64,000 bases of DNA from assembly GCF_900187035.1 (NCBI RefSeq), contig NZ_LT906446.1:682001-746000 (forward strand), given 5' to 3'. Below are positions 18,488-52,980 of this stretch, in pieces (the stretch's first letter is position 1; each line of letters opens with the position of its first letter). The notes below the pieces were generated by a model. That model made no database searches. It had not been told where the DNA came from and saw nothing but the letters and a program-made list of their open reading frames with translations. A program made the position numbers and the translations under genes. This DNA is from Megamonas hypermegale (GTDB lineage Bacteria > Bacillota > Negativicutes > Selenomonadales > Selenomonadaceae).

Positions 18488-19013
18488 ATGAAGATATTTA
18501 ATAATATTACAGAGAAACTTAAAGATGATTTAATTCAACAAATAAAAAAGGGCAGTAAAGTTTCAATAGCAGCGTCCTGTTTTTCAATATATGCTTATAA
18601 TGAGTTAAAAAAGCAATTAGAGAAAGTTGATAGTTTTAAATTTATTTTTATTAAAGTTTGAAGGAAAATATCAAGCTTGGATTAGTTATAAAGAGATAAT
18701 ACATGATACTGTAAAAGTAAATCAGTATTATCATACTGCATGGGTAGATGAAGAAAGCCTTCCATGTAAATTGGAGGGCTTAGATATGAATGCTGTATAT
18801 GAAAATTTTGTGCGACAAATTGCAGGAGCTGAATTAAGCGCAGACGAGAATACAAATTTAAAAGAAGATATTGAACAAGCAGAAGAAAAGAAACAAATAG
18901 AAAAACAGATAAAAGTATTACAAGCAAAAATTCGTAAAGAAAAACAGTTTAATCGAAAAGTAGAGCTTAATAATGAATTAAAAAGATTGAGGAAAATAAT
19001 AAATAAAAATTGA
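18488..19013 (+). pseudogene. Deletion-fused remnant: helicase N-terminus joined to DUF4391 C-terminus
   Basis: From ATG 18488 (AGAGGTTAAGAG upstream) the frame encodes MKIFNNITEKLKDDL, then KKGSKVSIAASCFSIYAY, the characteristic start of the PLD-like N-terminal domain of large defence-island helicases. It breaks near 18645-18660. The DNA continues in another frame as a DUF4391 C-terminus (GKYQAWISYKE, YYHTAWVDEE, LEGLDMNAVYENFVRQIAG, then a charged coiled coil) ending at 19013. Intact islands have a ~1000-residue helicase, then DUF4391, then mod and res. Here about 3 kb appears to have been deleted, leaving both outer ends. The apparent start inside the DUF4391 part (TTG 18627) is not a real gene start. 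Confidence 0.75.
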
Positions 19014-19028: not shown

Positions 19029-22000
19029 ATGAAGGATTTTATAATAAAAATTGCATTATCTATACGGAATGCGATTAGTAAAAAAGTAACTTATTTGATA
19101 AATAGATTTTATTTAAAAGAGTTTGTAATAAAATTTGCATTATCTGTATTAAATATAATCAATAAAAAAGCAACTTATTTAATAGATAAATTTAATAATA
19201 TAATAGATAAGCCTGATTTAGAGAAGTATAAAAAGTTATCTCCAATAGATGATATGGAAAATGGAGATGAATATATTGATGCTCTGGATTGGGCTATTAA
19301 GCATAAAGATATAAAAAATATAGCTATTACTGCTCCTTATGGGGCTGGGAAAAGTAGTGTTATAAAGACATATGTAAAGAAACATCCTAGTTTAAAATAT
19401 ACATTTATATCTATGGCAACTTTTAATAGTAGCGAAGGGAAATCTCAAGATGATGGGGAAAAAGAAGAGATACCTTTAGAAAAAATAGAAAATGTAATAT
19501 TAAAACAATTTTTTTATAAAGTAAAAAAGAATATGTTGCCACAAAGCAGATATAACAAGATAGAAAAAATGAGCTATAAGTATATTTTTGCATGGATTTT
19601 CTGCATTAATGTGTTTTGTTCAATCGGAAGCGTATTAGTTTTTCCAGATGTTTTAAGGGAAAAAGTGATTAATTGTATTAATTTTTTAATTGATTTAGGT
19701 ATTCCTGAATTTTGGACACACGTAATAATACCATGCTTAGTATTATTAGAAATGATAATACTTGCTAGTATAATAAAACAAGGTATGATTAAATTAAAAC
19801 TGAAAGAAATAAAATTATTTTCTAATGCTACTCTTGGGAGTGAAGCGATTGATGAAAAATCTATTTTTAATAAAAATATAGATGAAATTTTGTATTTTTT
19901 TGAAGCAACAGGATATGAAGTTGTATTTTTTGAGGATTTAGATAGACTAGAAAACAATGATATATTCATAGAGTTAAGAGATTTGAATTTTATCATAAAT
20001 AATTATGAAGGCTTAGAGAAACCCGTAAAATTTGTTTATGCAGTAAAAGATGAATTATTCCATAATAAAGAAGAACGCACTAAATTTTTTGATTATATTA
20101 TACCTGTCGTTCCAATAATCAATGCAAGTAATTCAGAAGATGTTTTTTTAAAGGAATTTGAAAATAATGCTGAATGTAATATATCGAAGGAATATATAAA
20201 AGATGTAGCACCATTCGTATCAGATATGCGAGTTTTATATAATATTTTTAATGAATTTAAGATTTATAAAAGAACATTAAAAGATTCAGATAGCATAAAA
20301 CTTGTAGATGAAAAAATGTTATCATTGATAATATTTAAAAATTTATATCCAAAAGATTTTGCTGAACTTCAAAATGAACAAGATGAAGGTATTGTTAAGC
20401 AAGCATTTAAAGATAAACAATCATTTATAGAAAAAAGAACTGAAAAAATTAGAGAAGATATAAATGAATTAGAAGAACAAATTATATTAGTAAAAGAAGA
20501 TTGTTTAAAGAGTACTAAAGAAATAAAATATGCTTTTTGTGGTCATTTAGTTGATTGGAAAGGTTCAGTTCGTAGAATAGAAAGATATAACGGATATAGA
20601 AATTATCTTTATATAATAGAAGAAATATTAGATGATAATTTTAATTTAAAAGATATTTATGAGGATAAGAGTATTTATACTATTTATTATGCTAATAGTA
20701 GTTACGATAATAAACGGAAAGATATAAATTCTAATGAGTTAAAAGTATTGTTAGAAAGTTATGCTAAAAGATGGACAGCTTTAAAATTATTAGAAGATAA
20801 GAAAAAGGAAGGCATACATCAAGATTTAGAAGAATTAAATAAACAGTTACAAAATATATCAATATTATCTTTAAAAGAATTAATTGATAGAAATGATGTT
20901 AAAGAAGTTCTATCTGATAATGTTAGAAGTAATAAAGTCTTAGTCTTTATGTTAAGATATGGTTATATTAATGAAGATTATAGTATGTATATTAACTATT
21001 TTAAAGGAGATAGTATAACAAAAGATGATATGAACTTTATTCTTAACATAAGAAATAGAGAGGTTCAGTCATTTGATTATAAATTGACTAGATTAAGAGG
21101 TATAGTTGATAGATTAAATATAAGAGATTTTAAGCAAAAAGAAGTTTATAATTTTTACTTATTAGAGTATTTATTATCAAATAGTAGTAAAGAAATTGAT
21201 AAGAATAAATTAGATAATTTTATACAACAATTAGCAGATGAGGAAAAAGAAAGTTGGTCTTTTATAGATGCTTTTGTAAGGAAGAATAATAACAGAAAGA
21301 AATTTATAAATTTATTAGCTTTAAAATGGGAAAATATGTGGATTTTTTTAACTGAAAAAGCAGCATTGACATATAATAGACAAATAGAATATTTTAAATG
21401 GTTATGTGAAAGTTTAAAAGTAGAAGAATTGCTTAATTTAAATAAAGATAAAGCATTTGAACAATTTTTTGAAGAAAATGAAGACATATTGATACAACTT
21501 AAAGATGTGAATATTAATTATTTGGAAAAGATAATCGAGAAATTAGAAATACATTTTTATAAGTTGAATATAGCGGGAGTTGATAAAAAACTTTTGGATT
21601 TTGTATTTGATAATAACTATTACAATATCAATAAATATATGATAGATACTATTCTTGTATACAAAAACAGTGAAATAACAGAAAGTGATTTAAATAGGAA
21701 AAACTATACAATGATAATGACTTCTGGATATGATTGTTTAATAGATAATGTTTTCGCTAATATTGAAGAATATGTAAAAGAAGTTATATTGAGTAACGAT
21801 AATAACTATGATGATGAAAAATATATTTTAGTCTTAATGATTAAATGTAGCGATGATATGGATTTAGTAGAAAAAATTATAGTGCATGAAATTTTTAAGT
21901 TAAAAAATATATCTGTTTGTGAAAATAAATATTGGTTATTATTACTAAAACATAGAAAAATTAATGCTAATTTTGAAAATGTTATTCAATATTGGAAACA

Positions 22001-22802
22001 ATTTTCAGAAAATGGATTAGATGAGGCATTAATAGATTTTTTATCTACAGAATGTGATGCAATCTTAAATAGTGACAGAAGTTTTGTTGAAGAAAAATTT
22101 ATAAAAGACTTATCATTTAGCGATATAGATAATAATATTTTTGAAAAATATATATCGTATGTAAGACTTATTTTTAATGATTTAGAATTGGATTTTGCTT
22201 CAATGAACCAAGAAAAACTTAAAATTTTGATACAAAATAAATATATACCTTTAAATAAAGAATGTTTTGACAAGATAAAAGATGTGTCTGTAGAAATGGC
22301 AACGTTATATATATTATCAGATAAAGATAACTTTATTGATAATATAGAAATATTTCAGATTGATGAAGATATATTTAATAATTTGCTGGAAGAAACGGGA
22401 AGGACAGATAAAGTATTTTGTCAAAAAATAGTAAATTATTATGGTAAAAATTTTATGAATGAAAATTTGATAAGAGCAATTTTTAACATGAATATTACTC
22501 TAACGAAAGATTTATTTAAAATTGTATTTGATGAAATAGATAATAAATTAAAATTAACATTGTTAGTAAGACATTTAAATTTATTTAATGCTGATGAATT
22601 AGAAAAGATTTTTTCAAAAATGGATGGTGAATATAAAGAATTATCAAATAGAGAAAAAAGACGTGATATACATTTACCTATAAATAGTAAAAATGAACGA
22701 TTATGTATTTATTTGCAAAAAATAAATTATATTTCTAATAAAAATATATATGATAAAGAACAACTTTTATTTAGAATAAAAGTTAACAAACAACAAAGGT
22801 AA
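19029..22802 (+). CDS. YobI-type giant membrane P-loop ATPase
   Basis: A 1257-residue protein. Residues ~4-55 contain a tandem duplication of 28 residues (19038-19205). Next come KLSPIDD and ALDWAIKHKDIKNIAIT, then Walker A APYGAGKSS (102-110), two membrane helices (~185-205 and ~230-250), and a STAND/KAP-like Walker B VVFFEDLDRLEN (298-309). The remaining ~900 residues are helical and charged, probably a sensor or scaffold. This matches the YobI-ATPase family, predicted from genomic context to act in phage defence. Its insertion between DUF4391 and mod supports that. The ATG follows GAGGTGAAGAAG, 15 bases after the DUF4391 stop. The catalytic output is unknown. Confidence 0.82.
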   Translation: MKDFIIKIALSIRNAISKKVTYLINRFYLKEFVIKFALSVLNIINKKATYLIDKFNNIIDKPDLEKYKKLSPIDDMENGDEYIDALDWAIKHKDIKNIAITAPYGAGKSSVIKTYVKKHPSLKYTFISMATFNSSEGKSQDDGEKEEIPLEKIENVILKQFFYKVKKNMLPQSRYNKIEKMSYKYIFAWIFCINVFCSIGSVLVFPDVLREKVINCINFLIDLGIPEFWTHVIIPCLVLLEMIILASIIKQGMIKLKLKEIKLFSNATLGSEAIDEKSIFNKNIDEILYFFEATGYEVVFFEDLDRLENNDIFIELRDLNFIINNYEGLEKPVKFVYAVKDELFHNKEERTKFFDYIIPVVPIINASNSEDVFLKEFENNAECNISKEYIKDVAPFVSDMRVLYNIFNEFKIYKRTLKDSDSIKLVDEKMLSLIIFKNLYPKDFAELQNEQDEGIVKQAFKDKQSFIEKRTEKIREDINELEEQIILVKEDCLKSTKEIKYAFCGHLVDWKGSVRRIERYNGYRNYLYIIEEILDDNFNLKDIYEDKSIYTIYYANSSYDNKRKDINSNELKVLLESYAKRWTALKLLEDKKKEGIHQDLEELNKQLQNISILSLKELIDRNDVKEVLSDNVRSNKVLVFMLRYGYINEDYSMYINYFKGDSITKDDMNFILNIRNREVQSFDYKLTRLRGIVDRLNIRDFKQKEVYNFYLLEYLLSNSSKEIDKNKLDNFIQQLADEEKESWSFIDAFVRKNNNRKKFINLLALKWENMWIFLTEKAALTYNRQIEYFKWLCESLKVEELLNLNKDKAFEQFFEENEDILIQLKDVNINYLEKIIEKLEIHFYKLNIAGVDKKLLDFVFDNNYYNINKYMIDTILVYKNSEITESDLNRKNYTMIMTSGYDCLIDNVFANIEEYVKEVILSNDNNYDDEKYILVLMIKCSDDMDLVEKIIVHEIFKLKNISVCENKYWLLLLKHRKINANFENVIQYWKQFSENGLDEALIDFLSTECDAILNSDRSFVEEKFIKDLSFSDIDNNIFEKYISYVRLIFNDLELDFASMNQEKLKILIQNKYIPLNKECFDKIKDVSVEMATLYILSDKDNFIDNIEIFQIDEDIFNNLLEETGRTDKVFCQKIVNYYGKNFMNENLIRAIFNMNITLTKDLFKIVFDEIDNKLKLTLLVRHLNLFNADELEKIFSKMDGEYKELSNREKRRDIHLPINSKNERLCIYLQKINYISNKNIYDKEQLLFRIKVNKQQR

Positions 22803-22857
22803 TAGATTTTTTAATGAAAAAATGATATAATAATTAGTTGGATTTTGAACGGAAGAA

Positions 22858-22903
22858 GAAGCCACTATTCTCAATTAAATAAAGTTGAGATAGTGGCTTT
22901 TTT
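22858..22903 (+). terminator. Terminator after the YobI-type gene
   Basis: Stem AGCCACTATTCTCAA / TTGAGATAGTGGCT with one bulged base and a T6 run. It separates the ATPase from the mod-res pair, which should therefore have its own promoter. Confidence 0.85.
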
Positions 22904-22938
22904 ATGTAGAAATAAAACAAAGTATGGAGGTTTGAATT

Positions 22939-24787
22939 ATGGAGAAAATGCGAATGGAGTCCATGGATATAGTGGCTAAAAACGTGGAAAAGATAGAAAA
23001 ATTATTTCCTGATTGCATTACAGAAGCTAGAGATGAAAATGGTAAATTACAGAAAGTTGTAGATAGAGATAAGTTGCTGCAAAATTTTTCACATAAGATA
23101 ATCGGGGGGGGGTACAGCGGAACGTTATGAGTTTACTTGGGTAGGTAAAAAAGATGCTAAAGTAGAAGCTAATAGACCTATTCGTAAAACTTTGCGTCCA
23201 TGTATTGAAGAAAGTAAAGACTGGGATAATACAGAAAACCTCTATATTGAAGGCGATAATTTAGATGTACTTAAATTATTGCAAAATAGTTACTTCAATA
23301 AAGTGAAAATGATATATATAGACCCACCATATAATACCGGTAATGACTTTATTTATAAGGATAATTTTTTCCAGACAACAGATGAATATGAGGAAGCTAA
23401 AGGTACTTTTAATGAAAATAATGAACGGTTATTTAAAAATACAGATACTAATGGTAGATTTCATTCTGATTGGTGTTCAATGATTTATCCTAGGTTAATA
23501 TTAGCTAAAAATTTATTGGCTGATGATGGTTTGATTTTTATTTCAATTGATGATAGTGAGCAAGAAAATTTAAAGAAAATTTGTGATGAAATTTTTGGTG
23601 AAAATAATTTTATCTGTAATTTTGTTTGGAAATCTAAATTAGGAAAAGTGGGAACTGGTACTAAAATAGCTACTTTACATGAATATATAATATGTTATGC
23701 TAAAAAAATAAATTTAACTAAAATAAAAATGATAGAGAATAAATCTCAAGGAAGAAAAGAAAATTTAAGACAATGGGGTGTTGCTGATAGAAAAGAAGAC
23801 AGACCATCAATGTTTTATCCTATAAATATAGAAGGTAAAGAGATATTTCCAATAAAAGAAGATAGAACAGAAGGAAGATGGAGAGTAGGTGAAGATACTG
23901 CTAAAAAGTTATTAAAAGAGGGTTATTTAGAGTTAGTAAATAAAAATGGGAAATATAATATATACAGAATATTTCCAGATAGTATATCATATATTCCCTT
24001 TGGTAGTTTGATATTGGATAATGTAGGAACAACAGCTAATGGAGCTAAAATATTAAAAGCTTTGAATATGAGTAGTAGTTTTAGTTTTTCAAAACCAGTT
24101 GATTTAATAAAATATTTTATAAATTTATTGATAAAAAGTAGCGGAATAATTATAGATTTTTTTAGTGGTTCAGCAACAACTGCTCATGCTGTTATGCAGT
24201 TAAATGCAGAAGATGGCGGTAAACGTAAGTTTATTATGGTACAGTTGCCAGAGAAAACAGATGAAAAGAGTGAGGCTTTTAAGGCGGGTTATAAAAATAT
24301 TTGTGAAATCGGCAAAGAACGTATTCGCCGTGCTGGTGAAAAAATAAAAGAAGAAGCAGGGCTTAATGGGCAAGATTTAGATATTGGCTTTAGAGTTTTA
24401 AAATTAGATGATAGCAATATGAAAGACGTATACTATAGCATTGATGAATACGACCAACAAATGTTATCTAATTTAGAGGAAAATATAAAAAAAGATAGAA
24501 CGGATTTAGATTTGTTATTCGGTTGTTTATTAGATTGGGGCGTAGAGCTGGATAAACCGTATATTACAAAAGATATCAATGGACATAAAGTGCATATCTA
24601 TAATGATGGTGATTTAGTAGCTTGTTTTGAAAAAGATTTAGATATGGAAACTATAGATGAAATTGCAAAATTACAAGCTTTAAGAGTAGTATTTCGTGAT
24701 AGCTGTTTTATCGATACACCTAGCAAAATAAATGTAGCTGAACGTTTTAAAATGATTGCTCCAGATACTGAAATAAAGGTTATATAA
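22939..24787 (+). CDS. mod: Type III DNA methyltransferase Mod, out of frame at a G9 tract
   Basis: N6-adenine methyltransferase and specificity subunit of a type III RM system. ATG 22939 (GGAGG upstream) opens a 63-residue frame that stops just after a G9 run at 23104-23112. The rest of the protein (to 24787) is in the frame that would be joined if the run had eight Gs: GGGTAERYEFTWVGKK is then continuous, giving 615 residues. In that numbering DPPYNTG (motif IV) is at 128-134 and FFSGSATT (motif I) at 407-414, the beta-class order, with the target recognition domain between. As written the gene is OFF; translation from an internal start at 23192 would lack the N-terminus. res follows after 15 bases. 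Confidence 0.9.
23104..23112 (+). repeat. G9 homopolymer in mod, probable phase-variation tract
   Basis: Nine consecutive Gs in otherwise very AT-rich coding DNA. G8 gives full-length Mod, G9 (this sequence) ends 8 codons later at TGA, and G10 ends at TAG. Slipped-strand mispairing at such tracts is known to switch type III mod genes in several pathogens. A base-calling error is the main alternative. Confidence 0.85.
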
Positions 24788-24802: not shown

Positions 24803-27800
24803 ATGAAACTGCAATTTAAACATCAAAAATTTCAGCAGGATGCTGCAAATGCTGTTTGCGATATATTTATGGGACAACCATATGGTGTATTCCAATATAA
24901 AGTGGATAGTGGAAATAGTCCTACTTTGGATGATATGGGATGGAAAAATAAAAAAATTGAATTAAACGATGATATTATTTTATCTAGGGTACAAGATATC
25001 CAAAGAAAAAATATGATTGTGCCATCTAAAAAATTAGAAGGACGATATAATTTCACCATTGAAATGGAAACAGGTGTAGGTAAAACTTATACTTATATAA
25101 AAACTATATTTGAACTTAATAAAAGATATGGTTGGAGTAAGTTTATAGTAATCGTTCCATCTATTGCTATACGTGAAGGTGTGTATAAAACTTTTCAAGT
25201 TACACAAGACCATTTTGCAATGGAATATAATAAAAAAATTGATTTTTTTATCTATAACTCAAAACAAATAGCGCGTTTAGAAGATTTTGCAACTAGTAGT
25301 TCAATAAATGTAATGATAATAAATTCACAAGCTTTTAATGCCAACGGTAAAGATGCGCGCCGTATTTATATGGAATTGGATGAATTTCGCTCACGTGTAC
25401 CAATTGAAGTTATAGCAGAAACCAATCCTATTTTAATCATAGATGAACCTCAATCTGTTGAAGGAAAGAAAACAAAAGAAGCATTAAAAGATTTTAATCC
25501 ATTGTTTACTTTGCGCTATTCTGCTACGCATAAAAAAAATAGCATTTATAATATGGTTTATAAATTAGATGCGATAGATGCGTATAATCAAAAATTAGTA
25601 AAGAAAATTACTGTTAAAGGCATTACTCAAAGTGGAACTACTGGAACGGAAGGCTATTTATATTTAGATAAAATAAAACTATCAAAAGCTGCTCCAAAGG
25701 CTATAATTGAATTTGATGTGAAAAAAGCAAATGGAGTTATACGTAATAGTGTAACCGTAGGTGAAGGTTATAATCTTTATGAAAACTCGGGTAATCTGGA
25801 TGAGTATAAAGATGGTTATGTAGTAAAAGAAATTAATGGTAAAGATGAATATATTGAACTTTTAAATGGTAAAAGGGTTTATGTAGATAAAGCAATTGGA
25901 GAAATGAATGAAGAACAAATACGCCGTGTTCAAATTCGTGAAACAATTCTTTCACATATTGAGAGAGAACGCCATTTATTCCGCAAAGGAATAAAAGTAT
26001 TATCATTATTCTTTATTGATGAAGTAGCTCATTATAAATGGTATGATGAAGCAGGACAAGCACAAAATGGCATCTTTGCTAAAATGTTTGAAGAAGAGTA
26101 CACAAATATCATAAATCATTTACAGCTAGAATTTTATGATGAAGAATATTTGAAGTATCTTGATAGTATTGATGTAAAAAGGACGCATGCAGGATATTTT
26201 TCTGTAGATAAAAAAGGGCATATGATTAACGGAAAGATATCAAAGAAAGAAAAAATATCTGATGATGTAGATGTATATGATTTAATCATGAAGGATAAAG
26301 AACGTTTATTATCTTTTGAAGAACCTGTACGATTTATCTTCTCTCATTCAGCATTAAAAGAAGGCTGGGATAATCCAAATGTATTTCAGATTTGTACATT
26401 AAAGCAAAGTAATAGTGATGTTCGCAAACGCCAAGAAGTAGGACGCGGACTGCGTTTATGTGTTAATAAAAATGGTGAACGTATGGATGAAGCTGTATTG
26501 GACAGAGATGTTCATAATGTAAATGTGCTGACTATTATTGCTAGTGAAAGTTATGATAGTTTTGCGCGTGGTTTACAAACTGAAATTGCTGAAAATATTG
26601 ATAGACCAAGCGTTATTACAGAAGATTTATTTGTGGGTAAAATCATCGAGAATATCAATGGTGATAAGCTTGTTATAGATAAAGATATGGCACATAGCAT
26701 GTGGTTTGACTTAGTTATTAGCAAGTATATTGATAAAAAAGGCATATTAACGGATAAATATCATACTGATTTGGATAATAAAGAAATTAAATTATCAGAA
26801 GAAGTACAAGAGTATGCACCAGAAATTATAAACATTATTAATTCTGTTTACGATGAAAAACGTTCACTTCCTATTGAAAACGCTAGAGATTATGATGTAG
26901 ATTTAAAACTCGATAAAAATAAAATGGCTATGCCAGAATTTAAAGCTCTTTGGTCAAAAATAAATACAAAAACAGTGTATGAAGTTCATTTTAATACTAA
27001 TGAATTGATAAAAAAAGCTATTTCAAATTTAAATGTTAATTTAAGAGTAGCTAATATTTATTTTAAAATTGAGACGGGCAGTCAAACTGATAGAATTGAA
27101 TCAAAAGAAGATTTATTAGAAGGAAAGACTTTTGTAAAAGAAGATACTAAATCATATAACAGTCAAAGATATTCCAAAGTTAATAATGCAGTAAAATATG
27201 ATTTAGTTGGCAAATTAGTAAAAGAAACTAATCTCACGCGCAAAGATATTATAGCCATTTTGACAGGTATTGAGAAAAATGTATTTAATATGTTTAAGAA
27301 TAATCCTGAAGAATTTATTATTAAAGCTGCAAGAATAATAAATGATGCAAAGGCTACAACAGTGATTGAACATATTAGTTATGAATCAACAAATAATCAT
27401 TACGATATAGATATATTTAATGATAATATGGTTAAAGGAAAACGCGATGTAAATTCAATTAAAGTAAATAAGCATTTATATGATTATGTTGTGTATGATT
27501 CAAATATTGAAAGAAAATTTGCCGAAGACTTAGATACAGATAGAAATGTAGCTGTATATGTAAAATTACCGAATAGCTTCTTTATTTCAACTCCAGTAGG
27601 TAAATACAATCCTGATTGGGCTATTGCTTTTTATGAAGGAACAGTTAAACATATTTATTTTGTAGCAGAAACAAAAGGTTCTATGTCATCTTTACAGCTT
27701 CGTTTAATTGAAGATACGAAAATTAAATGTGCAAGAAAACATTTTGCTGCAATTAGTAAAGGTGATGTCGTATATGATGTAATAGATAGCTATGATAAAT

Positions 27801-27823
27801 TACTTGAAGTATTGAAAAGTTGA
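24803..27823 (+). CDS. res: Type III restriction enzyme Res subunit
   Basis: A 1006-residue ATP-dependent translocase and endonuclease. Walker A ETGVGKT is at 89-95, followed by the motif II variant IIDEPQSVEG (about 210), motif III LRYSATHK, and motif VI RQEVGRGLRLCVN. The C-terminal PD-ExK nuclease is seen in YNPDWAIAFYEG followed by FVAETKGSM (about 935-965). The frame is intact. It needs Mod for sequence recognition, so its activity is tied to the G-tract state of the gene just upstream. GGGGTGATG precedes the ATG. Confidence 0.95.
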   Translation: MKLQFKHQKFQQDAANAVCDIFMGQPYGVFQYKVDSGNSPTLDDMGWKNKKIELNDDIILSRVQDIQRKNMIVPSKKLEGRYNFTIEMETGVGKTYTYIKTIFELNKRYGWSKFIVIVPSIAIREGVYKTFQVTQDHFAMEYNKKIDFFIYNSKQIARLEDFATSSSINVMIINSQAFNANGKDARRIYMELDEFRSRVPIEVIAETNPILIIDEPQSVEGKKTKEALKDFNPLFTLRYSATHKKNSIYNMVYKLDAIDAYNQKLVKKITVKGITQSGTTGTEGYLYLDKIKLSKAAPKAIIEFDVKKANGVIRNSVTVGEGYNLYENSGNLDEYKDGYVVKEINGKDEYIELLNGKRVYVDKAIGEMNEEQIRRVQIRETILSHIERERHLFRKGIKVLSLFFIDEVAHYKWYDEAGQAQNGIFAKMFEEEYTNIINHLQLEFYDEEYLKYLDSIDVKRTHAGYFSVDKKGHMINGKISKKEKISDDVDVYDLIMKDKERLLSFEEPVRFIFSHSALKEGWDNPNVFQICTLKQSNSDVRKRQEVGRGLRLCVNKNGERMDEAVLDRDVHNVNVLTIIASESYDSFARGLQTEIAENIDRPSVITEDLFVGKIIENINGDKLVIDKDMAHSMWFDLVISKYIDKKGILTDKYHTDLDNKEIKLSEEVQEYAPEIINIINSVYDEKRSLPIENARDYDVDLKLDKNKMAMPEFKALWSKINTKTVYEVHFNTNELIKKAISNLNVNLRVANIYFKIETGSQTDRIESKEDLLEGKTFVKEDTKSYNSQRYSKVNNAVKYDLVGKLVKETNLTRKDIIAILTGIEKNVFNMFKNNPEEFIIKAARIINDAKATTVIEHISYESTNNHYDIDIFNDNMVKGKRDVNSIKVNKHLYDYVVYDSNIERKFAEDLDTDRNVAVYVKLPNSFFISTPVGKYNPDWAIAFYEGTVKHIYFVAETKGSMSSLQLRLIEDTKIKCARKHFAAISKGDVVYDVIDSYDKLLEVLKS

Positions 27824-31285: not shown

Positions 31286-33823
31286 ATGGTTTCAGCAGGA
31301 AGTGCTAATATTGGTGCTATGACAAATGGACAACAACAAATATTAGCGGATGCGGCAGGAACAATAGAGCAAATGAATGGTGGTTCCCAGATAGTAAGTG
31401 GAACAGGAAGCATAAAAGATATGCAAGCAGGTGTTCAATATGTTGATGGTGGCAATGCAACAATAGAAAAAATGAATGGTGGAACACAAAAAATTTCATC
31501 AGGAAATGCAAGCATTAACACGATGGCTGGTGGACAACAACAAATACTAACTAATACTACAGGTAATATAAATATAGTAAATGGTGGTTCTCAGATAGTA
31601 TGGGGAATTGGTGCAATTGATAGTTTGAATAGTGGAGAACAAATTATTGAAAATGGTGGTATTGGTACTATAAAAAATATTGTAGGTGGTAAACAGATTA
31701 TAAAATCTGGTGGTACTGGGAAAGTTGAAAAATACACAGAAAACCAAATTATTCAAGCTGGTGGTACAGGTATTATTGAAACTTTAGATACTAAGTACAC
31801 ATTGACTTCTGGACAAACAGGAAAAGTAAATATTGTATTATCAGGAGGTACACAGATTGTAGGCAGTGGAGCAATTGGCTATGTTTCTAATGTACAATCT
31901 GGTGGACAACAAATTGTACAAGCTAATGGTATTGGTCATATTGATAAAATAAATCAAGATAGTGTAAATACACAAGTTGTTGAAAAAGGTGGTACAGGTA
32001 TTATTGGTCAGTTAAATACAAGTATTACTTTGACAGAAGGACAAACTATTCAAGTAGAGAATTTCGGTGATAATGGTAAACTGGTTATTGGACAGGGAGC
32101 GACAGGTCAGACCGATAAATATGACGAAAATGTTGAAGTTGGTGAAGGTGGAACTATCAATGTAGGTACGTTGGATACTGAAATGAATTTAGAAGGAGAT
32201 AAAACAGCTGTTATTGAAGACGAAATGACGGAAGATGCGGTACAAATTGTAGGACAAGATGCTACAGGAACAATAAAGAACTTGAACACTGGAATGCAAA
32301 TAGTACAAAAAGGTGGTATTTCTAAAGACACTGTTATCAATGGTGGTTTATTATATGTAAATGAAGGTGCTATTGTACAAGATACTACAATTAATTCAGG
32401 AACGTTGTCATTTGCTAATACAGGTGGAGTATATGAATTAACAGGTACATTTACAGCTAATGGTGGAAATATTGTATTAACACAAGAAGCCTCTAATAAA
32501 TTAAGAACTGTTAATACAATAAATAACGCCTCTTATGAAACTTTAAATATTCAAAAGATGAAAGGTTCAAATGCTCATTTTATTTTAGATACGGATTTGG
32601 AAAATGGTATGACATTTGACAAAAATGATGAAAGTAAAACATTAGCAGAATTGAAAAATGAGGCGACACAAAATAATGATAAGATTATAATTAATGAAGC
32701 TGAAAAAGGCACACATTATATACAAGTAAAAGACGCTAGTGGGGAAAATTTCTCTAAAATAGAACCAGGTAAATATCAAGTTCTAGTAGTAGATAAAAGT
32801 GGTAATTTAGAATTTAAAGGTGAAAAATACAATGCTGGCGGATTATATGAGTATGACCCATCTATTGTTCGTGGTGATAAATATGGATTGGATAAAAATG
32901 AATGGCTTTTAACTAGTGTAGAAAAAAATATAAATAATGATACTAGAGTTTTATTAGATGCTACAGATAATGCTTATGCAATGTGGAGAAATACAAATGA
33001 TAGTATGCGTTCTCGTTTGGGTGAGTTGCATAATAGCAATATAAATGATATGGGATTATGGGCTAGATATCTTGATGGTAGTTTTGATAACAGTGCTTTT
33101 GACAGTGATTATAATTTATTCCAATTGGGATATGATAAACAAGCTGATACAAAATCTATTTATGGTGTAGCTATCGATTATGGTACTGGTAAAAGTAAAT
33201 ATGTAAATGGCGGTAGCAATGATAAATTAACTGCACTTAGTGTATATGCAGTATGGAATAATGATGATGATGCATATACAAATTTAACAGCACGTATAGG
33301 TCAATTTGATACAGAATTAAATTCTTATGGAGATTATGCAGATAGTACAAATTATAAACATAATGCGTACAGTTTAAGTGCTGAATACGGTAAACGTTAT
33401 AATTATGATAATAATTTTTATATTGAACCACAAGCACAATTAACTATTGGTAGATTAGCAAGTTTTGACTATACTACAAATCGTGGTGCAACAGGGAATG
33501 TTGATGGATTAAATAGTGTTATTACTCGTTTAGGTTTTACAGTAGGTAAACAAGCAGAAAATGGAAATAATATTTATTTAAAAGCTGATATGTATCATGA
33601 ATTTGCAGGAACACGAAATTTAATACTTGAAAGTAAAGCCAGTGGAAGTAGTGAATTTTTATCTAGAAATGCAGACTATAGTGATACATGGTTTGAAGTA
33701 GGTGTTGGTGGTAATATTAAATTATCTGAAGACGTTACTTTCTATGGTGATGTAACACGTGGATTTGGTGGCGACATTAATAAAGATTGGCAAGTAAATG
33801 GAGGTATTCGTTGGGCATTTTAA
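31286..33823 (+). CDS. AIDA-repeat autotransporter with beta-barrel, no signal peptide
   Basis: An 845-residue type V secreted protein. Residues 1-~400 are degenerate ~18-20-residue repeats of the form GGxQxVxxGxGxIxxM (for example GGSQIVSGTGSIKDM), predicting a beta-helix passenger. A linker follows, and from about 560 (LLDATDNAYAMWRN) comes a 12-strand autotransporter barrel ending in GGIRWAF with the terminal Phe needed for outer-membrane assembly. The frame begins at ATG 31286 after TGGAG and enters the repeats at once. No signal peptide is encoded in frame, so the 5' end is probably lost and the product may not be exported. The barrel proves a diderm host. Confidence 0.82.
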   Translation: MVSAGSANIGAMTNGQQQILADAAGTIEQMNGGSQIVSGTGSIKDMQAGVQYVDGGNATIEKMNGGTQKISSGNASINTMAGGQQQILTNTTGNINIVNGGSQIVWGIGAIDSLNSGEQIIENGGIGTIKNIVGGKQIIKSGGTGKVEKYTENQIIQAGGTGIIETLDTKYTLTSGQTGKVNIVLSGGTQIVGSGAIGYVSNVQSGGQQIVQANGIGHIDKINQDSVNTQVVEKGGTGIIGQLNTSITLTEGQTIQVENFGDNGKLVIGQGATGQTDKYDENVEVGEGGTINVGTLDTEMNLEGDKTAVIEDEMTEDAVQIVGQDATGTIKNLNTGMQIVQKGGISKDTVINGGLLYVNEGAIVQDTTINSGTLSFANTGGVYELTGTFTANGGNIVLTQEASNKLRTVNTINNASYETLNIQKMKGSNAHFILDTDLENGMTFDKNDESKTLAELKNEATQNNDKIIINEAEKGTHYIQVKDASGENFSKIEPGKYQVLVVDKSGNLEFKGEKYNAGGLYEYDPSIVRGDKYGLDKNEWLLTSVEKNINNDTRVLLDATDNAYAMWRNTNDSMRSRLGELHNSNINDMGLWARYLDGSFDNSAFDSDYNLFQLGYDKQADTKSIYGVAIDYGTGKSKYVNGGSNDKLTALSVYAVWNNDDDAYTNLTARIGQFDTELNSYGDYADSTNYKHNAYSLSAEYGKRYNYDNNFYIEPQAQLTIGRLASFDYTTNRGATGNVDGLNSVITRLGFTVGKQAENGNNIYLKADMYHEFAGTRNLILESKASGSSEFLSRNADYSDTWFEVGVGGNIKLSEDVTFYGDVTRGFGGDINKDWQVNGGIRWAF

Positions 33824-51164: not shown

Positions 51165-51230
51165 TATAACACCTCGTATTTTTTATATATAATTTGTTAA
51201 TATAACAATTATATATAAATGGCTAGAAAA

Positions 51231-52840
51231 ATTCAAAAACAACTCTTGCTAAGGTTAATTTTGTTTATATTATATACTACATTGCTTTAATTATGGATTT
51301 AAATACAACTCTTGTTAAAGTTAATCGTGAGCAGTCCAGTAGTTTTTTAATTCTTGAGTTAATTCAAATACAACTCTTGTTAAAGTTAATCGCGAACTTG
51401 GATAGTATCTATCTATCTTTTGCACTATATTCAAATACAACTCTTGTTAAGGTTAATCGGTGTTTATCGTTTCAATCCTTATTTGTTCGGAAAAATTCAA
51501 ATACAACTCTTGTTAAGGTTAATCGTTGTATCAGTCAAAGAAATTAACATCTTGATGACATTCAAATACAACTCTTGTTAAGGTTAATCTTGGATGTTGC
51601 ATAATTTATATTATTAATTCCCCATATTCAAATACAACTCTTGTTAAGGTTAATCAGGTTTCTAAATCTTCGGCAGCACAATTTTTAACAGATTCAAATA
51701 CAACTCTTGTTAAGGTTAATCGCTTCGTTAACTTCTGCTTGTGTTGGCGTTTTTTGTATTCAAATACAACTCTTGTTAAGGTTAATCAAGAAAATCTTGT
51801 CGACCCTAACCTTGCTAAATACAATTCAAATACAACTCTTGTTAAGGTTAATCTTTATGGTTATGGTTCTAGCAGCACATTCAAGAAAAATTCAAATACA
51901 ACTCTTGTTAAGGTTAATCAAATTTTGCAATGATTTATAAATTAGATTTAAACAAATTCAAATACAACTCTTGTTAAGGTTAATCCATGGTCTATGAATT
52001 TTTCTGAGTCTTTCCATTTCCATTCAAATACAACTCTTGTTAAGGTTAATCTAATCTACAGACAAACACCACTAACACAAGAAATAGATTCAAATACAAC
52101 TCTTGTTAAGGTTAATCAATAAAAATGGATAATGAGTGGATAGAGAATTTGTAATTCAAATACAACTCTTGTTAAGGTTAATCACTAGCAAGTGTATTTG
52201 CACGATTAAGCAAAAATGAATTCAAATACAACTCTTGTTAAGGTTAATCAGAGGCAATTATTACTTATTATACTGCTGCTGATGAATTCAAATACAACTC
52301 TTGTTAAGGTTAATCTAATCAAGAAGATGTTAATATTGATAATGAGCCTCCATTCAAATACAACTCTTGTTAAGGTTAATCCCACCAGCTACAGAACGCA
52401 ATTTCTTTATTTTAGGATTCAAATACAACTCTTGTTAAGGTTAATCAAATTCTAATAATAACGCTCTATCAATGTTTGCCTGATTCAAATACAACTCTTG
52501 TTAAGGTTAATCTCATATAGTTCTTCATTCTTATAAATCTTATCCAGATTCAAATACAACTCTTGTTAAGGTTAATCAAACTACCACCTACATTACCTAT
52601 TACAGGAACAGCATTCAAATACAACTCTTGTTAAGGTTAATCTTTTTTCTTTTTCAGACGCAAACCAACAGCGAGATTAATTCAAATACAACTCTTGTTA
52701 AGGTTAATCTGATAGTATAGCTGCATAATGGGTGGTAATTATTAATTCAAATACAACTCTTGTTAAGGTTAATCAAACGCTGAAAAGGCTTCTACGGCTA
52801 CAGAATTAATATTCAAATACAACTCTTGTTAAGGTTAATC
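51231..52840 (-). CRISPR. CRISPR array, 25 repeats of 30 bp and 24 spacers of 35-37 bp
   Basis: On the plus strand the repeat reads ATTCAAATACAACTC, then TTGTTAAGGTTAATC. Starts lie at 51231 (three mismatches), 51297, 51362, 51429 and so on at ~66-bp steps to 52811. The leftmost three are degenerate (51297 and 51362 have AAAG for AAGG); all from 51429 on appear identical. Degeneracy at the left and a promoter at the right show that it is transcribed on the minus strand, where the repeat starts GATTAACC and ends GTATTTGAAT. That form resembles repeats I associate with subtype I-B. No cas gene occurs in the window, so it is an orphan array or uses cas genes elsewhere. Confidence 0.97.
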
Positions 52841-52980
52841 CCATGTAAATATTGGATTTCTTTTTTCTAGTATATCCTAAAAAGCCTTATTTATCAATGT
52901 TTTTATCTATTTTTACCAAGTGATTGGTTATCTTTTCATATTTATTAAAAAAAAGCGATAAACGCCTATAACTAAAGGGT
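52841..52980 (-). promoter_or_regulatory. CRISPR leader with predicted promoter
   Basis: The AT-rich sequence next to the conserved end of the array. Minus-strand TTGATA (52897-52892), 17-base spacer and TATACT (52874-52869) would start transcription about 20-25 bases before the first repeat. There is no gene between 52841 and 53059. Confidence 0.7.

Follow-up and report, generated by a model that had tools for sequence, protein, structure and literature searches.

A poly-G tract at a reading-frame break points to a phase-variable type III methyltransferase in Megamonas hypermegale

Results

A Small Island with Candidate Defence Genes

We analyzed a 64,000-nucleotide stretch of the Megamonas hypermegale genome (contig NZ_LT906446.1, positions 682,001 to 746,000 of the forward strand; hereafter the window) and found a mod-res gene pair within an island of about 10 kb, placed between a PHP-domain gene and rubredoxin. 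In a genome of the same genus (G001), these two neighbors are present and the island is absent. The pair shares the island with a candidate defence gene encoding a Tmn-like NTPase (19029..22802, +), which contains a YobI-ATPase domain (PF20693; Pfam E-value 8e-111) and matches the PADLOC Tmn profile with an E-value of 1.5e-84. Just before this gene lies a deletion relic (18488..19013, +), in which 54 N-terminal residues of an SNF2-type helicase continue directly into the C-terminal portion of DUF4391. Relatives, L010 and L040 among them, have the helicase and DUF4391 as two whole genes before mod, and the relic thus indicates that the island is partly decaying. Judged by its predicted gene content, the island is best read as a small defence island combining Tmn and type III restriction-modification (R-M).

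Between the Tmn gene and mod we identified a strong hairpin followed by a T run (22856..22904, +), with 13-nt arms, a predicted RNA folding energy of -31.1 kcal/mol and a z-score of -5.6. It ends 35 bases 5' of the mod start codon, with TGATATAAT upstream (region 22818-22938), and may serve as a terminator of the Tmn gene or as an attenuator in the mod leader. The hairpin matched no Rfam family significantly and has no second copy in the genome. Two other features of the window lie outside the island. A few genes downstream, positions 31286-33823 encode a protein of 845 residues in which glycine-rich motifs recur and whose end resembles that of an autotransporter. Positions 51230-52860 hold a CRISPR-like array in which a repeat of about 30 nt (ATTCAAATACAACTCTTGTTAAGGTTAATC) occurs 25 times with a period of 65-67 nt, the repeats at the low-coordinate end being degenerate.

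A G9 Tract Separates Two Reading Frames of mod

The mod gene is split into two frames. The N-terminal frame (22939..23130, +) is preceded by a GGAGG-like Shine-Dalgarno sequence and runs from the ATG at 22939 to a TGA at 23128-23130, encoding 63 residues that end in KIIGGGYSGTL; this short peptide would be the product in the OFF state. The catalytic frame (23102..24787, +) is one base out of step with it and carries the N6/N4 methylase domain (PF01555) with the motifs DPPYNTG and FFSGS; its earliest listed start is a TTG at 23192. The TTG, GTG and ATG codons at which translation could restart before the DPPYNTG region have no clear Shine-Dalgarno sequence, and their use would cost at least 84 residues.

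Direct reading of the window gives AATC-G9-TACAGC at the junction of the two frames, and the nine guanines that the initial annotation had placed inside the mod frame lie at exactly 23104-23112 (+). This putative slippage site codes for GGG in the linker between the N-terminal module and the methyltransferase core. When the tract was read with one G less, the two frames joined into a Mod of exactly 615 residues, and the joint reads GGGTAERYEFTW. The joined protein with one guanine fewer had been proposed in the initial annotation and stands, with the correction that the frame is restored by any tract of 3n+2 guanines, that is, by G8 or G11 and not by G8 alone. As in a contingency locus, the length of the tract sets the reading frame of mod.

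Such a tract is hardly expected by chance. A pattern search of the 2,230,342-base genome found a single G/C run of nine, none of seven or eight, and 14 others of six. According to order-2 and order-3 Markov models trained on the window, 0.02-0.03 runs of at least nine would be expected genome-wide, a figure that is slightly generous because the window used for the fit contains the run itself. The tract is thus longer than genome composition predicts. The same counts modify the earlier impression that G-rich runs are conspicuous in this AT-rich genome: only one G/C run reaches seven or more, and it is this tract that stands out.

Mod and Res Appear Otherwise Intact

The joined Mod matched the PADLOC MTase_III profile over residues 1-615 (profile positions 2-621 of 621, E-value 1.5e-214) and, by sequence, the type III Mod structures 4zcf (EcoP15I), 6k0w and 7dsu (Mbo45V). 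An AlphaFold model of the protein matched the fold of the same three structures with overall TM-scores of about 0.6, a level that indicates fold agreement at the domain level. In comparison with relatives, DPPYNTG is invariant and FFSGS near-invariant. The adjoining res (24803..27823, +) is intact and encodes a type III restriction subunit of 1006 residues with a helicase and an endonuclease domain (PF04851, PF19778), matching the PADLOC REase_III profile over positions 1-986 of 989 (E-value 1e-299). With a type III profile and beta-class motifs in Mod and both domains in the neighboring Res, the locus is predicted to encode an otherwise intact type III R-M pair.

The part of mod left out of frame has been preserved. 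Of the positions that are invariant in 44 relatives, Mod keeps all 52, and of the near-invariant ones 136 out of 138. The catalytic frame contains no stops, whereas the two alternative frames contain 61 and 98. As all invariant residues are kept in the out-of-frame part, we see no coding decay; to judge from these residues, a long-dead gene would look different. Apart from the frame break, mod is thus intact, as a contingency locus should be. The same genome encodes a second type III-like mod (G000:C1:1861494-1862732, -), which is uninterrupted, shares 41% identity and has no G-tract.

The tract falls at a position where additional residues might do little harm. In the AlphaFold model, the GGG lies within residues 51-69, a stretch of low confidence that is lowest at 59-61, between the N-terminal helical module and the core. 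In most relatives the linker is short (GDEAYEFTW, for example), and the window Mod and that of a Clostridiales metagenome-assembled genome (MAG; L006) add the GGG to it; in the alignment, the window Mod is 1-3 residues longer here than nearly all relatives. A linker of this kind would probably tolerate glycines.

Tracts in Related Loci

We compared the locus with roughly 85 related loci, most of which have no G-run and a frame open straight through. The initial annotation had suggested an alignment of mod start regions and had counted a non-repetitive in-frame sequence in related strains as evidence against a switch. Most relatives do have such a linker, but they are distant (about 40-57% identical) and the argument concerned related strains.

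A few relatives carry tracts of their own. In L006 the same linker carries G9, in frame, with a nonsense codon upstream of the tract. A Spirochaetales MAG (L053, 3846-7700) has tandem mods, one intact and without a tract, the other with G7 at the linker and the frames out of register. Two Duncaniella MAGs carry tracts at a second N-terminal site, different from that of the window: G9 in frame in L045 (5740-7695) and G10 out of frame in L076 (1-2046), their mods being sisters on the tree with support 100/98. Every one of these genomes is a draft MAG, and their tract lengths therefore need the same caution as that of the window. On a tree computed without L006, the tract label requires at least three changes, meaning that tracts have been gained or lost repeatedly; a FastTree phylogeny including L006 did not group it with the window. 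From these comparisons, the repeat tracts appear to be lineage-specific insertions at the species level and beyond.

Wider searches with the tract pattern covered 380 further Negativicutes and 398 further genomes of the phylum and found no same-site tract in a mod linker. Pattern matches in G167 and G071 were not readable as a mod linker and look like chance, and a G8 in L111 was not counted, as it lies in a different Mod-like gene (36% identity) whose frame is open across the run. Neither the exact tract-flank pattern nor the combination of a G-tract and Y(E/Q)FTW had a match in viral contigs; plasmids gave distant homologs only, and two homologs on human faecal phage scaffolds had no tract.

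Discussion

A Candidate Switch and Its Alternatives

We consider it likely that the locus is a phase-variable type III mod of the Helicobacter pylori modH type, captured in the OFF state in this assembly. In the proposed mechanism, slipped-strand mispairing during replication would add guanines to the tract or remove them. With 3n+2 guanines the gene would be ON, giving the full 615-residue Mod, methylation of the target and guidance of Res; other lengths would break the frame, and with G9 translation would end after codon 63. Type III Res is active only together with Mod, as in EcoP15I and EcoP1I. Toggling of Mod should for this reason toggle restriction too, and the OFF state would leave the cell with neither methylation nor restriction by the mod-res system. 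Slippage, its reversibility and the loss of activity in the OFF frame are what we infer from this arrangement, and the status of the locus as a phasevarion is a prediction. What favors the switch is that the sole G/C run of seven or more in the genome falls exactly on the frame break. The phase-variable mod in its OFF state, as the initial annotation had it, is further supported by the gene family, the two frames and their joint, the lack of decay, and the tract lengths and frames seen in relatives. Against a switch stand the single assembly with its single allele, the error-prone length of homopolymers, a run of nine that is short as slippage tracts go, the rarity of same-site tracts together with the nonsense codon ahead of the one in L006, and the neighboring helicase/DUF4391 relic in a partly decaying island.

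The main rival is that the true length is G8 in most cells and the ninth guanine a base-calling or consensus error, mod being on in the sequenced strain. Homopolymers are a frequent cause of assembly errors, deep sequencing of a Bifidobacterium gave G-tract lengths other than those reported for its reference genome (PMC9187656), and the remainder of mod is intact. We regard such an error as rather unlikely, and it would alter the reported state while leaving the kind of locus largely as described: a true G8 would still be the sole G/C run longer than six in the genome and still a candidate switch. A fixed frameshift could instead have killed mod once, leaving a decaying locus and an incidental tract. 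The relic state of the adjoining helicase and DUF4391 genes would fit such a history, but the break sits exactly at the only long G-run, mod (with its 52 of 52 invariant residues and no stops) and the intact res show no further damage, and relatives have comparable arrangements of tract and frame; these points make decay improbable. We give still less credence to programmed recoding, in which the ribosome or RNA polymerase slips on the run so that a fixed G9 yields some full-length Mod. Homopolymer runs can favor slippage and a one-base shift would suffice, but recoding sites are usually conserved, whereas nearly all relatives lack the tract and those that have one differ in its length and site.

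The flexible linker that precedes the methyltransferase core in this Mod family could be a site where poly-G switches arose recurrently and independently in Bacillota and Spirochaetota, with a nearby N-terminal site used in Bacteroidota; gut anaerobes outside the classical pathogens would then have made type III R-M phase-variable repeatedly. We put this forward tentatively, rating it at slightly less than an even chance.

Comparison with Known Switches

Poly-G-switched type III mods are already known, and a Negativicute example would apparently be new within the open-access literature searched: there we found no report of a phasevarion or of phase variation in Veillonella, Megamonas or Negativicutes. 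If true, the finding would add a gut Negativicute to the bacteria with repeat-controlled type III R-M and, via the relatives, MAGs of gut Bacteroidota and Spirochaetota as well. A genome whose only such tract lies in a defence gene rather than a surface gene would be a clean system in which to ask whether the switch benefits phage defence or gene regulation, roles between which a recent review leaves the matter unsettled (PMC11868660).

The closest model is modH of H. pylori, whose poly-G tract ranges from G9 to G15 across strains and sets the gene ON or OFF through the frame (PMC3230613, PMC5700931). Both are type III N6-adenine mods, the activity here being predicted, with a poly-G tract inside the reading frame. 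For modH, however, both length alleles in different strains and changes in gene expression have been demonstrated, whereas one allele is known here; the host belongs to another phylum, and the ON class is 3n+2 (G8) in place of the G10 and G13 of modH. More generally, a repeat inside the mod frame is shared with the REBASE type III mod genes that bear simple sequence repeats, quoted as 17.4% of type III mod genes (Atack et al. 2018, cited in PMC7394358). The modA and modD genes of Haemophilus and Neisseria and modS of Streptococcus suis have longer repeat units (GAGCA in modS; PMC8125046), unlike the poly-G tract found here. Outside methyltransferases, the pilus switches of Bifidobacterium breve use a G-tract that joins two frames and was seen to vary in length both within one culture and in mice (PMC9187656). 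Those switches involve a pilin gene and a measured tract length, and the locus described here a methyltransferase gene, but in both cases a gut commensal has two frames linked by a G-tract.
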